Shown in pieces: positions 4,377-13,676 of a stretch of DNA of 42,336 bases. The first letter of the stretch is position 1. Each line of letters opens with the position of its first letter. A model generated the notes under the pieces. The model was not told where the DNA came from. It ran no database searches and saw only the letters and a list, made by a program, of their open reading frames with translations. The position numbers and the translations under genes were made by a program. The stretch comes from Bacteroidales bacterium (GTDB taxonomy: Bacteria; Bacteroidota; Bacteroidia; Bacteroidales; UBA932), in the NCBI GenBank assembly GCA_017554335.1, contig JAFZIO010000054.1:1-42336 (forward strand), read 5' to 3'.

Positions 4377-6326
4377 ATGGCTCAGTATATAGTATCTGCC
4401 CGCAAATATCGTCCTGATTCATTTGAAAGCCTTATAGGACAGGACAATATAGCCCGGACCCTGAAGAATTCCATCATCCGGGGGCAGCTGGCGCACGCTT
4501 ATCTTTTCTGCGGTCCGCGCGGAGTCGGCAAGACCAGCGCCGCCCGTATTTTCGCCAAAACTATAAACTGTGCCCATCCTACCGCAGACATGGAGCCTTG
4601 CGGGGAGTGCGAATCCTGCGTCTCTTTCCGCGAGGGCCGTTCCTATTGCATCCATGAGCTGGATGCTGCATCCAACAACGGCGTCGAGGATATCAAGGCC
4701 CTCATGGAACAGGTGCAGATTCCTCCCCAGGTGGGCAAGTACAGCGTCTACATCATAGACGAGGTGCACATGCTCACCCAGTCGGCTTTCAATGCCTTCC
4801 TGAAGACACTCGAGGAGCCGCCGGCACATGCCATCTTCATTCTGGCCACCACAGAAAAGCACAAGATCATTCCTACCATACTCAGCCGCTGCCAGACTTA
4901 CGATTTCAACCGCATCAGCGTGCCTGACATCGTTCGCAACTTGCGTGACATAGCCGGCAAGGAGGGTGTGAAGGTAGACGATGAGTCGCTGCACGTGATA
5001 GCCCATAAGGCGGACGGCGCCATGCGTGACGCCCTGACTATCTTCGACCAGACGGTGGCTTTCTGCGGTACGGACATCCATTATGAGGATGTTATCCGCA
5101 ACTTGAACGTGCTGGATTACGAGTACAGCTTCAAGCTGGTGGATGCTTTCCTGGCCAAGGATTACGGCACCGCGCTGCTGGTGTTCGACGAGATCTTGTC
5201 CAAGGGTTTCAACGCCCTGCATTTTGTGTCGGCTCTGGGCAGCCATTTCCGCGATTTGCTGGTGAGCCGTACCGGCGGGCTTGACGCCCTGCTGGATTTG
5301 CCGGCTTCCCTGCAGGAGCGTTACCGCGAGCAGGCGGGGCGCTGCTCCGTGAAGTTCCTTTACGAGGCGCTGGGCATCGTGTCCCAGTGCGAGGCGGGTT
5401 ACCGCGGCGCCACCAACCAGCGTTTGCATATTGAGTTCGCGCTTATGCGCCTGGCGTTCCTCGGAGGCGTGCCCTCCGAGCCGGCTCCGGCCGTTTCCGC
5501 TACGCGGGTGTTGCCTCCGAAAGACTTCGCTTCGCTCATCCCTCCCACTGCTGACGCAGCGGGTCCCTCCCATTCACGTGGCCATGGGCGGCCACGGTCT
5601 TCGGAGGCAACACCCGCCTCCGCTTCGCCGGCCGGAGCTGAAGCCTTGTCTTCGGTTGTTCCTGTTCAGCCGGATGCGGCCGTAGAGGCAGCAGGCAGTC
5701 CGGTTGCGGGACCTTTGGCTCCCGAAAAGGGAGGGGACCCGCTTGCGGGGAGGCGTCCCGCGGCCGGAGCTGCCTGGGCCGGTGAAACGGCCGCAGCCGG
5801 AGCACAAGAAGCCGGATTCGGAGGCAATACCCGCGGAGCGGACAAGCCGGCGGCGCTCAGGAAGCGGGCGGCGGGGCTGTCGCTGAGTTCGCTGATGAGC
5901 GACGAAGAGATAACGGTTGAGCTGGCGACGGAGGCTGACAGCGGGGAGCAGCCGCTGCCGGACGCTGAAGCGCTGAAGGCAAAGTGGCCTGAGCTCGCGG
6001 CAATGTACTCCGCGCAGCCGCGCCTTGCGAACGCCCTTGCCACTGCAAAACTGGACACCAGGGAAGAAGACGGCCGAGTGATCCTGAGCTTCGCCCTCGT
6101 GAGCGAGGCGCAGCGAAGCTGGATTGCGGACAAGAAGCTACGCGAACTGGAAGACCGCTTCCAGAAGCTCATGAACTGCAACAGGATACGCCTGGAGCCC
6201 GAAGTCCTGCCCGAGGAACATCAGGAAGACAAAAAATACATGCCTGTAGAAAAGGCACAAGACTTGATGCAAAAGAACCCCGAAGTAGGCGAACTGATTA
6301 AAGACCTCTCACTTGATATAAGATGA
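4377..6326 (+). CDS. dnaX: DNA polymerase III subunit gamma/tau, carrying an in-frame palindromic insert
   Basis: DnaX is the clamp-loader ATPase that loads the beta clamp during replication. The 649-residue protein has Walker A GPRGVGKT (46-53), a zinc module with Cys65, Cys75, Cys78 and Cys81, Walker B IIDEVH (126-131), the sensor-1 SRC motif, and domain III to about residue 370. Then comes an Ala/Gly/Pro-rich linker (about 370-500) and a tau-type C-terminal domain to residue 649. The linker starts with residues 377-413 encoded by the 112-bp palindromic element at 5505-5616, which recurs in atpG. Further foldable repeats lie at 5706-5761 and 5817-5834. The start follows a -7 box by 20 nt. 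The stop overlaps the lptB start (ATGA, 6323-6326). I saw no convincing slippery site for making a short gamma form. Confidence 0.96.
5505..5616 (+). repeat. 112-bp protein-coding palindromic element, copy 1 (in dnaX)
   Basis: The ends are inverted repeats: GCGGGTGTTGCCTCCGAA at 5504-5521 is the exact reverse complement of 5600-5617. Inside are a stem CTGC-TGAC-GCAG, flanked by CCC and GGG (about 5545-5563), and a hairpin CGTGGCC-ATGGGC-GGCCACG (5577-5596). The same sequence occurs at 12894-13005 in atpG with 102 of 112 positions identical. It is read in frame and encodes a 37-residue hydrophilic peptide containing DFASLIPPT and [15 protein letters not shown]. It sits in the flexible linker of DnaX, where an insertion is tolerable. 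It resembles in concept the Rickettsia palindromic elements; the family itself is unknown to me. Confidence 0.9.
5706..5761 (+). repeat. Foldable palindrome in the DnaX linker (three-way-junction shape)
   Basis: An outer stem GCGGGAC (5706-5712) with GTCCCGC (5755-5761) encloses two small hairpins: CTCCC-GAAAA-GGGAG (5719-5733) and CCCG-CTTG-CGGG (5738-5749). The whole is in frame in the dnaX linker. It could be another in-frame palindromic insert or just GC-rich linker sequence; no second copy is present in the window. Confidence 0.4.
5817..5834 (+). repeat. Lone end-like sequence of the palindromic element
   Basis: TTCGGAGGCAATACCCGC matches the right end of the element at 5600-5617 at 17 of 18 positions but has no element body next to it. 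It encodes FGGNTR in the DnaX linker. It may be a decayed copy, a rearrangement product or a preferred target. Confidence 0.5.
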
Positions 6327-7099
6327 AACTGCACTGCCATAACCTGGTCAAGAAATACGGCCTCCGCACAGTCGTGAAGGGGGTGTCGATGGAAGTCGAG
6401 CAGGGAGAAATAGTTGGTTTCCTCGGCCCCAACGGAGCCGGAAAGACAACCAGCTTCTACATGATAACAGGCCAGATAGTCCCCAACGAAGGCCAGGTAT
6501 TCCTGGACGACGAAGAGATTACCAACCTCCCCATGTACAAGCGCGCCCAGAAAGGCGTAGGCTACCTCCCCCAGGACGCATCCGTGTTCCGCAAAATGTC
6601 CGTCGAAGACAATATAATGAGCGTGATGGAGATGAAGGGCATGCCGCGCAAGGAACGCCAGGAACGTCTGGAAGACCTTATAGACGAATTCAACCTATCC
6701 AAAGTCCGCAAGTCCCTGGGAATCCAGCTGTCCGGCGGTGAGCGCCGCCGCTGCGAGATTGCCCGCGCCCTGGCCATCGACCCCAAGTTTATTCTTCTGG
6801 ACGAACCTTTCGCGGGAGTCGACCCCATTGCAGTGGAAGACATACAGTACATCATCGCAAAACTCAAGTACAAGAATATAGGCGTCATCATTACGGACCA
6901 CAACGTGGGCGAAACCCTCGCCATCACGGACCGTGCGTACCTGCTTTACGAAGGATCGATCCTCCAGCAGGGCACGCCCGAGTCGCTTGCGGCCGATGAC
7001 GATGTGCGCACCAAATATCTCGGCAGCGGTTTCGTATTAAAGCGTTCCGTATCGGTACTGCGTGCCCAGGAAGAGCACGAAGCAAAAAAGGAGGCATAG
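6323..7099 (+). CDS. lptB: LPS export ABC transporter ATP-binding protein LptB
   Basis: LptB is the cytoplasmic ATPase that powers lipopolysaccharide extraction by LptFG. The 258-residue protein has Walker A GPNGAGKT (35-42), a Q-loop in [12 protein letters not shown], the signature LSGGE (136-140), Walker B with LLDEP (158-162) and the switch His in ITDH. The [18 protein letters not shown] stretch is typical of LptB rather than of amino-acid transport ATPases. It overlaps the dnaX stop by four bases and ends 1 nt before the atpD ATG, so it is translated within the same message. Compared with E. coli LptB the C-terminus is longer, with a charged tail. Confidence 0.93.
7088..7094 (+). promoter_or_regulatory. 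Ribosome binding site that decides the atpD start
   Basis: AAGGAGG lies 6 nt before the ATG at 7101, inside the last codons of lptB. It supports 7101 over the in-frame ATG at 7062, which would add 13 basic residues that are not typical of AtpD. Confidence 0.75.
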
Positions 7100-12732: not shown

Positions 12733-13676
12733 AGGATCGTATCGCATCGGTGCGTAGTACGCTGAAGATTACTTCGGCGATGAAACTCGTGGCTTCTTCC
12801 AAGCTGCGCCGCGCCCAGCGTTCAATCGAAGCCCTGAGGCCGTATGCCGATACACTTTCGGAAATCCTGGCTACGGCCAGCGGCTCCACTTCTCGGGAGT
12901 TGCCTCCGATGGACTTCGCTTCGCTCATCCCTCCCACGCCTGACGGCGCGGGCCCCTCCCATTCACGTGGCCATGGGCGGCCACGGTCTTCGGAGGTAAC
13001 CCCCGAAGGCGTCTCGCCGCTGGTCGTAGTGGCGTTCGCCAGCAACAGTTCCATGTGCGGAGCATTCAACGCCAACGTCATCAAGAAGACGCTGGAAGTC
13101 GCGCGCGAATGTGAGTGGAACATGGAATTCTGGGCGTTCGGCCGCAAGATGGCCGAGGCGCTGCGCAAGGAGGGACATCCTGCGACGCGCGACTATTCAT
13201 CCCTTGTAGCCCATCCGTCGTTCGATGCCGTGGCCAAGGTGGCCGAAGAGTTGCGTACGCTGCAGCAGACCGGTGCCATTTCCGGCGCCGTGCTGGTTTA
13301 CAACCACTTTGTCAGCACCGGCCGCCAGCTAGTTGTGGCGGAATCTTACCTGTCGGCTGACGATTGTGCGGATGCCGGGGAGGGCTCCGGAGGCCATTTC
13401 GGCGAAACTGAGCCGTCAACCGGGCCCTCTGACTACATCCTGGAACCCTCTGCGCCGGAGCTGCTGGAAACCCTGATGCCGCAGGTGCTGGATCTGAAGC
13501 TGTATGCGGCGCTGCTGGATTCTGCGGCTTCCGAGCATGCGGCCAGGATGATAGCCATGCAGACGGCGACCGACAACGCAGAGGAACTGCTCGCCAGCCT
13601 TACGCTGGAATACAACAAAGGCCGCCAGCAGAAGATTACCTCAGAGATTCTGGATCTTGTAGGCGCCGAAGCCTGA
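12711..13676 (+). CDS. atpG: F1Fo ATP synthase subunit gamma, carrying an in-frame palindromic insert
   Basis: Gamma is the rotating central shaft of F1. The 321-residue protein has the N-terminal shaft helix ([20 protein letters not shown] onwards), the conserved [17 protein letters not shown] segment, and the C-terminal shaft helix ending [19 protein letters not shown]. Between the first helix and the Rossmann-like core, residues 62-98 are encoded by the 112-bp palindromic element at 12894-13005, the same element as in dnaX. From memory of other Bacteroidota gamma subunits, that loop is normally shorter and has no such sequence. The core motifs on both sides are intact, so the protein should work. 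A second hydrophilic loop (about 220-245, [15 protein letters not shown]) is also relaxed in sequence. Confidence 0.96.
12894..13005 (+). repeat. 112-bp protein-coding palindromic element, copy 2 (in atpG)
   Basis: This copy has ends CGGGAGTTGCCTCCGA (12894-12909) and TCGGAGGTAACCCCCG (12990-13005), inverted with 14 of 16 positions complementary (one of the two exceptions is a G-T wobble). The hairpin CGTGGCC-ATGGGC-GGCCACG is identical to copy 1. The other hairpin reads CGCC-TGAC-GGCG, where copy 1 has CTGC-TGAC-GCAG: two base pairs differ and both remain paired. The reading frame is the same as in copy 1, giving a nearly identical peptide (P for A, G for A, M for K and similar changes). Confidence 0.9.

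Follow-up and report, generated by a model that had tools for sequence, protein, structure and literature searches.

The window analysed here, the 42,336 nucleotides of contig JAFZIO010000054.1 (assembly GCA_017554335.1) from an uncultured gut Bacteroidales bacterium, contains two copies of a palindromic element, one in frame inside dnaX and one in frame inside atpG, and this element is a dispersed family in that organism. Its core is a conserved pseudoknotted fold of ~70 to 85 bp, set inside variable inverted arms; in two host genes, those for EamA and Fmt, native host codons make up one arm, and the second arm is their inverted copy. We think it probable that the family represents a dispersed, non-coding structured palindrome that is tolerated in genes and whose arms and core are reshaped by template switching.

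Two copies in the window and dispersal across genomes

The original prediction, made from the letters of the window alone, held that stretches of dnaX and atpG match at 102 of 112 positions, with inverted ends and a shared reading frame, and re-alignment bears this out: in an ungapped alignment, 5505-5616 and 12894-13005 are identical at 102 of 112 positions, the ends are inverted, and both copies start in frame 0 of the host open reading frame (dnaX 4377-6326, atpG 12711-13676). The match of the atpG copy to the dnaX copy (BLASTN E = 7.2e-40) is far beyond chance. Described there as a 112-bp palindrome, the element does have inverted ends, but 112 bp is not its full extent, as outer arms pair beyond a loop in both genes. 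In dnaX, 5484-5492 pairs with 5630-5638 at 9 of 9 positions after an internal loop, and in atpG the outer complementarity joins 12871-12884 to 13016-13029 at 13 of 14. The features in the window are as follows.

4377 to 6326, plus strand: host gene dnaX (TIGR02397, over cut-off)
5484 to 5492, plus strand: outer arm of the dnaX copy, 5' side, 9/9 with 5630-5638 (read from the sequence)
5505 to 5616, plus strand: element copy in dnaX, arms and core, written on the dnaX strand (sequence, BLASTN)
5505 to 5525, plus strand: arm P1 of the dnaX copy, 5' side (sequence and fold)
5518 to 5602, minus strand: match of covariance model R1, folded strand of the core, dnaX (92.8 bits, E = 1.1e-19; this copy, locus L001, belonged to the R1 model alignment)
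5544 to 5563, minus strand: hairpin P3 of the dnaX copy (alignment helix 4, placed by hand)
5569 to 5595, minus strand: hairpin P4 (5578-5583 with 5590-5595) and pseudoknot (5569-5573 with 5584-5588) of the dnaX copy (helices 2 and 3, placed by hand)
5597 to 5616, plus strand: arm P1 of the dnaX copy, 3' side (sequence and fold)
5630 to 5638, plus strand: outer arm of the dnaX copy, 3' side (read from the sequence)
12711 to 13676, plus strand: host gene atpG (TIGR01146, over cut-off)
12871 to 12884, plus strand: outer arm of the atpG copy, 5' side, native codons (12 contiguous bases identical in relative G043)
12894 to 13005, plus strand: element copy in atpG, arms and core, written on the atpG strand (sequence, BLASTN)
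12907 to 12991, minus strand: match of covariance model R1, folded strand of the core, atpG (92.9 bits, E = 1.1e-19)
12958 to 12984, minus strand: hairpin P4 and pseudoknot (12958-12962 with 12973-12977) of the atpG copy (offsets as in dnaX)
13016 to 13029, plus strand: outer arm of the atpG copy, 3' side, inverted copy of 12871-12884 (13/14)

The element is present elsewhere in the genome too, where its absence would have spoken against a dispersed family: over the 2.35 Mb, BLASTN returned 33 matches, several being fragments of the same copy, and a covariance model built from 48 copies recovered 38 copies. At E <= 1e-5 the model matched in 48 of the 60 relatives from the same genus, over which copy numbers ranged from 0 to 43, and in 4 of 294 further genomes drawn from the order, for which copy numbers are lower bounds (15 candidates were scored per genome). 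These four belong to four other genera and four families, one being the window's own family; a same-genus genome listed among the 294 gave no model match. BLASTN shows the same concentration, with matches in 19 of 24 same-genus relatives and in none of the 16 genomes taken from elsewhere in the order. Scanning genome contigs with a pattern gave at least 107 stretches with the element, and among the stretches listed the titles read Bacteroidales, Bacteroidia or Bacteroidaceae, with the exception of one Candidatus Cryptobacteroides (L229), and many name ruminant or horse gut.

Nothing supports spread on plasmids or phages, in which blastn of the dnaX copy found no match, and an exact pattern search of viral contigs also found none. 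Several copies sit at contig ends; 20 stretches around such copies, on which no gene scan was made, held only element copies and no longer carrier repeat. Loci from the contig scan and from the relatives' genomes come partly from the same assemblies, and exact duplicates were removed before copies were counted, so that the overlap touches the loci but leaves the copy numbers as they are. Alignment A1 comprises 55 copies and A2 48 of 50 picked from 157; from the set of 159 copies used below we excluded any that lay close to the end of a locus, lacked the 3' motif, or duplicated another copy in core and inner arms.

Host genes and reading frames

In the window's genome, 17 copies are read in frame inside 16 genes, with the host frame open throughout; this count covers only the copies read, and some model matches in the genome are intergenic. 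Thirteen of the 17 lie in sense orientation (7, 3 and 3 over the three frames) and four in antisense (2 and 2), so that five of six frames are used, the sixth being blocked by the TGA in the usual GGGATGA. Family support exists for 15 of the 16 host genes, which encode DnaX, AtpG, TilS, TrmB, ThiL, FolC, HemW, PrmC, PolA, UvrA, UDP-glucose dehydrogenase, Fmt, AroB, an RlmB-like methyltransferase (below the family cut-off) and a Thump_like protein; the remaining host is a membrane protein without a family match. AroB carries two copies in opposite orientations. Hosts in other genomes include RsmA, YgiQ, RsmE, EamA, an S-adenosylmethionine (SAM) methyltransferase and an AroE-AroK type fusion. 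The claim that a small element had dispersed, rather than a gene been duplicated, is thus upheld by copies in many unrelated genes, in several frames and on both strands.

The near-identity of the DnaX and AtpG peptides, by contrast, finds no support as what defines the element. Its copies occur in both orientations and use five frames in the genome, of which the one shared by dnaX and atpG is a single example, so the peptide is not what the family conserves. Over the 159 copies we counted 3.37 open frames versus 3.41 after shuffling; six-frame openness is therefore not enriched, and the element is not adapted to coding. We also considered a conserved peptide as the selected thing and rejected it on these counts and on those of the core, which taken alone has 3.84 open frames versus 4.30 shuffled. 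That copies survive inside genes is most readily explained by selection acting on the host. We propose that host proteins would carry element-encoded residues and, with arms apparently copied from the host genes, that the element would rewrite proteins as it evolves.

Two side observations concern the settings in which copies and similar inserts occur. Three intergenic copies in G016 (L055, L056, L057) lie just upstream of apparent start codons. The Ugd loop (L243, L247) and AtpG linker (L063, L065) of relatives hold other in-frame inserts, palindromic or repeat-like, with the peptides CHPERSEGS in G043, VPELVEG in G049 and SFRPERS in G011 and G004; several repeat families seem to use these loops as common landing sites.

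A conserved pseudoknotted core

Read on the strand opposite dnaX, the core runs in the order arm, CGU, P4, GGGAGGGGCCC, hairpin P3, GGGAGGGAUGA, hairpin P2, GAA, arm, and the loop of P4 pairs with a stretch 3' of P4 to form the pseudoknot. The pseudoknot has two variable pairs, both of them Watson-Crick without exception (48 of 48 copies): the first is G-C in 25, U-A in 12, A-U in 10 and C-G in 1, and the second is U-A in 30 and C-G in 18. Covariation over the whole structure reached 0.362; shuffles gave 0.124, none of the 500 coming up to the real value, and sliding the partners gave no more than 0.076. Because these same sequences served to draw the structure, it has an advantage over slid versions, but the two-sided changes are independent of that. 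The outer P1 rows of A2 are partly misaligned owing to bulges.

Wobble pairs indicate which strand folds. In 112 copies, one per distinct arm and each scoring at least 8, wobble within 30 nt of the core favoured the strand opposite dnaX by 83 to 28 (per copy 46 versus 11, with 55 ties; sign test p = 3e-6), whereas farther than 30 nt from the core the count was 38 versus 38, with no strand bias. The folded strand is accordingly likely to be the one opposite dnaX, a call that rests on arm wobble, given that A2 pair 49-68 (G-U in 24) could be a conserved U and not a pair. In our reading of this pattern, one folded strand is under selection close to the core, and no such selection acts farther out.

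Against Rfam 15, only a tRNA exceeded the threshold in the window, which has a tRNA gene at 41347-41431 on the minus strand. As for the element being a known Rfam RNA, an idea we rejected, five other loci searched at E <= 5 gave one weak overlap with it (E 2.9). In L008 (aroB) and L122, in G000 and G063, a different hairpin, longer but alike in sequence, takes the place of the P4 region, perhaps because one palindrome has nested inside another.

Arms that are self-complementary, variable and in part apparently copied from the host

Over the 159 copies the two arms of an element align over a median of 34 pairs at 89% identity, and a copy's own arms score a median of 21 versus 7 for permuted arms, although the best permuted pair also reaches 21. 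Arm sequences differ between copies across the family, so there are no constant terminal inverted repeats family-wide.

Individual sites show where an arm can come from. Four species carry the element at one site in EamA, where other species, the window's included, have a short loop. In G011 the 5' arm at this site is native coding sequence for a transmembrane helix, homologous to that of element-free relatives, and the 3' arm is an inverted copy of it, matching at 48 of 49 aligned bp in an alignment that has a single gap of 5 nt; in G004 the arms match at 30 of 30. Similarly, the 5' arm in Fmt of G000 reaches into the codons of FTEL, a motif conserved in most of the relatives compared, and the 3' arm is their inverted copy. 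AtpG in the window offers a third case, with 14 native nt at 12871-12884 and an inverted copy at 13016-13029 (13/14), which is weaker because it is short.

In G076 the copy L284 (1-200) is ~30 bp longer than its sister copy L285 by an AT-rich extension; this may be local sequence duplicated in inverted form, or else the copy may lie within a terminator.

Occupied, flipped and empty sites among relatives

Ten orthologous sites were compared, and at 5 of them the orientation of the core depends on the species. At RsmE and at one intergenic site it is flipped between G023 and G063; at EamA, G011 and G004 are opposite to G023 and G063; at Fmt, orientation differs between G043 and G000; and in the RlmB-like gene G011 is opposite to G000 and G023. 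The RsmE arms can still be aligned from one species to another, which suggests that the core inverted where it lay. This count leaves out L032 (two copies), L043 and L050 flanks; TrmB (L032 versus L005) was compared as protein.

Sites without the core were also found. G064 has only a small palindrome without core at RsmE, and at its empty convergent site, read by eye, we recognised no target duplication; nor did we recognise a parent transposon for the element. The atpG loci of 29 relatives have no core at the window's atpG site, so the relatives do not all share both peptides at the same places; AtpG linkers of relatives hold other inserts, and G061 has a diverged element copy elsewhere in atpG. 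The dnaX copy is common to some relatives, a point outside the reach of a reader of the window alone: sense copies lie at about the same place of the linker in G004, G011 and G074, and no copy was found at that place in G023, G063, G064, G008 or G043. Further down the linker, a copy in opposite orientation is present in G043 and also in G074. In the window, 5706-5763 of the dnaX linker holds, by eye, a seemingly decayed second copy, downstream of the first and in opposite orientation, which aligns to the place of the intact G043 copy.

A proposed mechanism by template switching, and its alternatives

In the mechanism that we favour, the element would land at many places. Those insertions in genes that keep the frame and fall in a tolerant loop or linker would be the only ones to survive there, to be translated as extra residues. 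Replication through the hairpin would then switch template, copying one flank onto the other; this would homogenise the arms and extend them into host sequence, and would sometimes invert the core between the arms. Both arm homogenisation and core inversion are predicted by replication template switching, and the family bears both signatures. In coding genes of yeast, template switching between inverted repeats is described as homogenising arms and inverting spacers (PMC8604942), and it has been proposed for the coding palindromes of nematomorph mitochondria (PMC6649704). More tentatively, the folded single-stranded core might be recognised by a trans-acting mobility enzyme, perhaps an HUH (Y1) transposase.

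Such an enzyme is central to a rival account, possible but in our view doubtful, in which an ordinary miniature inverted-repeat transposable element (MITE) or repetitive extragenic palindromic (REP) element is moved by a Y1-type (REP-associated) transposase, the arms being its ends and their host codons coincidental. Among same-genus genomes, Y1_Tnp occurs in 43 of the 49 that carry the element versus 3 of the 12 that lack it (Fisher p = 4.5e-5), copy numbers of the two correlate (rho 0.46), and young subfamilies have constant arms. Against this, arms are not constant family-wide, an EamA arm matching host codons over 48 of 49 bp is no coincidence, and among the coordinates listed we saw by eye no Y1 gene beside a copy, the nearest one seen lying ~3 kb away in G023. 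As the mover, a Y1 transposase is a weak lead.

Selection on structure alone, by which copies would be kept as folded RNA or single-stranded DNA with arms paired through compensatory single changes, draws on the strong covariation of the core and on the strand-specific wobble of the near-core arm, as expected if one folded strand is selected. We regard it as unlikely, however, because the outer arms lack strand bias yet remain complementary and reach native host codons, because insertions lie on either gene strand so that no one transcript strand is selected everywhere, and because selection alone leaves the flipped cores unexplained. It also seems rather improbable that the folded core is itself the driver, provoking template switching wherever it sits, regrowing its palindrome from host codons, flipping, and perhaps even spreading by these same errors of replication without a dedicated transposase. 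Were this true, the palindrome would maintain itself and, in doing so, insert host codons in antisense into essential proteins.

Reverse transcription of a core RNA into new sites would suit the core's resemblance to a structured RNA with a pseudoknot, but a retroelement is very improbable: RVT_1 is absent from 7 of 9 genomes with at least 30 copies (genome incompleteness weakens single absences), and its presence is uncorrelated with copy number (rho 0.08). Finally, the nearly identical peptides might point to protein sequence conserved since ancient times, or to a duplication linking dnaX and atpG; this explanation has practically no chance of being correct, the sites being empty or differently filled in relatives and the copies lying in many unrelated genes, several frames and both strands.

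Several observations weigh against a dispersed palindrome reshaped by template switching. In some subfamilies the same arm sequence recurs at different sites, which means that arms move together with the core as well. The one clean empty site, between convergent genes in G064, shows nothing of the arms, which in this instance need not derive from the target. Five of the ten orthologous sites (the convergent intergenic site, AroE-AroK, TrmB in G000 and G023, and two places in the dnaX linker) show a single orientation in the species read, and outside RsmE the flipped cores may be second insertions in the other orientation. The long near-perfect palindromes L180 and L229 (~70 pairs or more) lie near contig ends and may be assembly fold-backs; both stay among the 159 copies of the arm and openness counts, and no argument is built on them. 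To these we add the lack of open-frame enrichment and the finding of no transposase gene adjoining element copies. The genomes are mostly incomplete assemblies, and differences in completeness, or in the overall load of mobile elements, may underlie the Y1 correlation.

Comparison with known systems

Protein-coding palindromic elements are best known from Rickettsia and Wolbachia, and the family described here extends them to gut Bacteroidales. Orthologous sites with arms rewritten from host codons and with flipped cores would offer a natural record of template switching in proteins. With such a record, the ways in which structured repeats reshape essential proteins, and the reasons for the persistence of these palindromes in genes, become open to test. 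A literature search, which covered few subscription papers, found no description of the element. The original prediction knew of no such family in Bacteroidota, which was too strong, as CGTC repeats are reported in Bacteroidetes, and such repeats in coding regions of various organisms (PMC3733652).

The likeness to Rickettsia and Wolbachia palindromic elements (RPEs and WPEs) proposed at the outset was well founded. These are described as dispersed palindromes of ~100-150 bp, often in frame inside unrelated genes (PMC10969869, PMC3767692), and the element resembles them in size, palindromy, in-frame dispersal and insertion spots with different repeats in different species. RPEs are, however, described as encoding a conserved peptide, whereas the element uses five frames, and on that account we do not file it with them. 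RPEs are also reported to lose repeat identity over time (PMC6649704), whereas the arms here remain complementary while their sequence turns over. Going by the published descriptions, the pseudoknotted core, core inversion and host-copied arms set the element apart.

Coding palindromes of Nematomorpha mitochondria share in-gene inverted repeats, arm identity kept as sequence changes, and a proposed origin in template switching; their host-coding arms are mostly perfect and reach 284 bp, and the account available to us describes no dispersed conserved core (PMC6649704). Template switching in yeast, as reported, likewise combines arm homogenisation with spacer inversion in coding DNA, but the inverted spacers are a few bases long, in contrast to the structured dispersed element of tens of bases found here (PMC8604942). 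REP elements with GTAG or CGTC tags are dispersed palindromes too, in Bacteroidetes among others and also in coding regions; at 20-40 bp they are smaller than the element, which differs further in its variable arms and its pseudoknot (PMC3733652).

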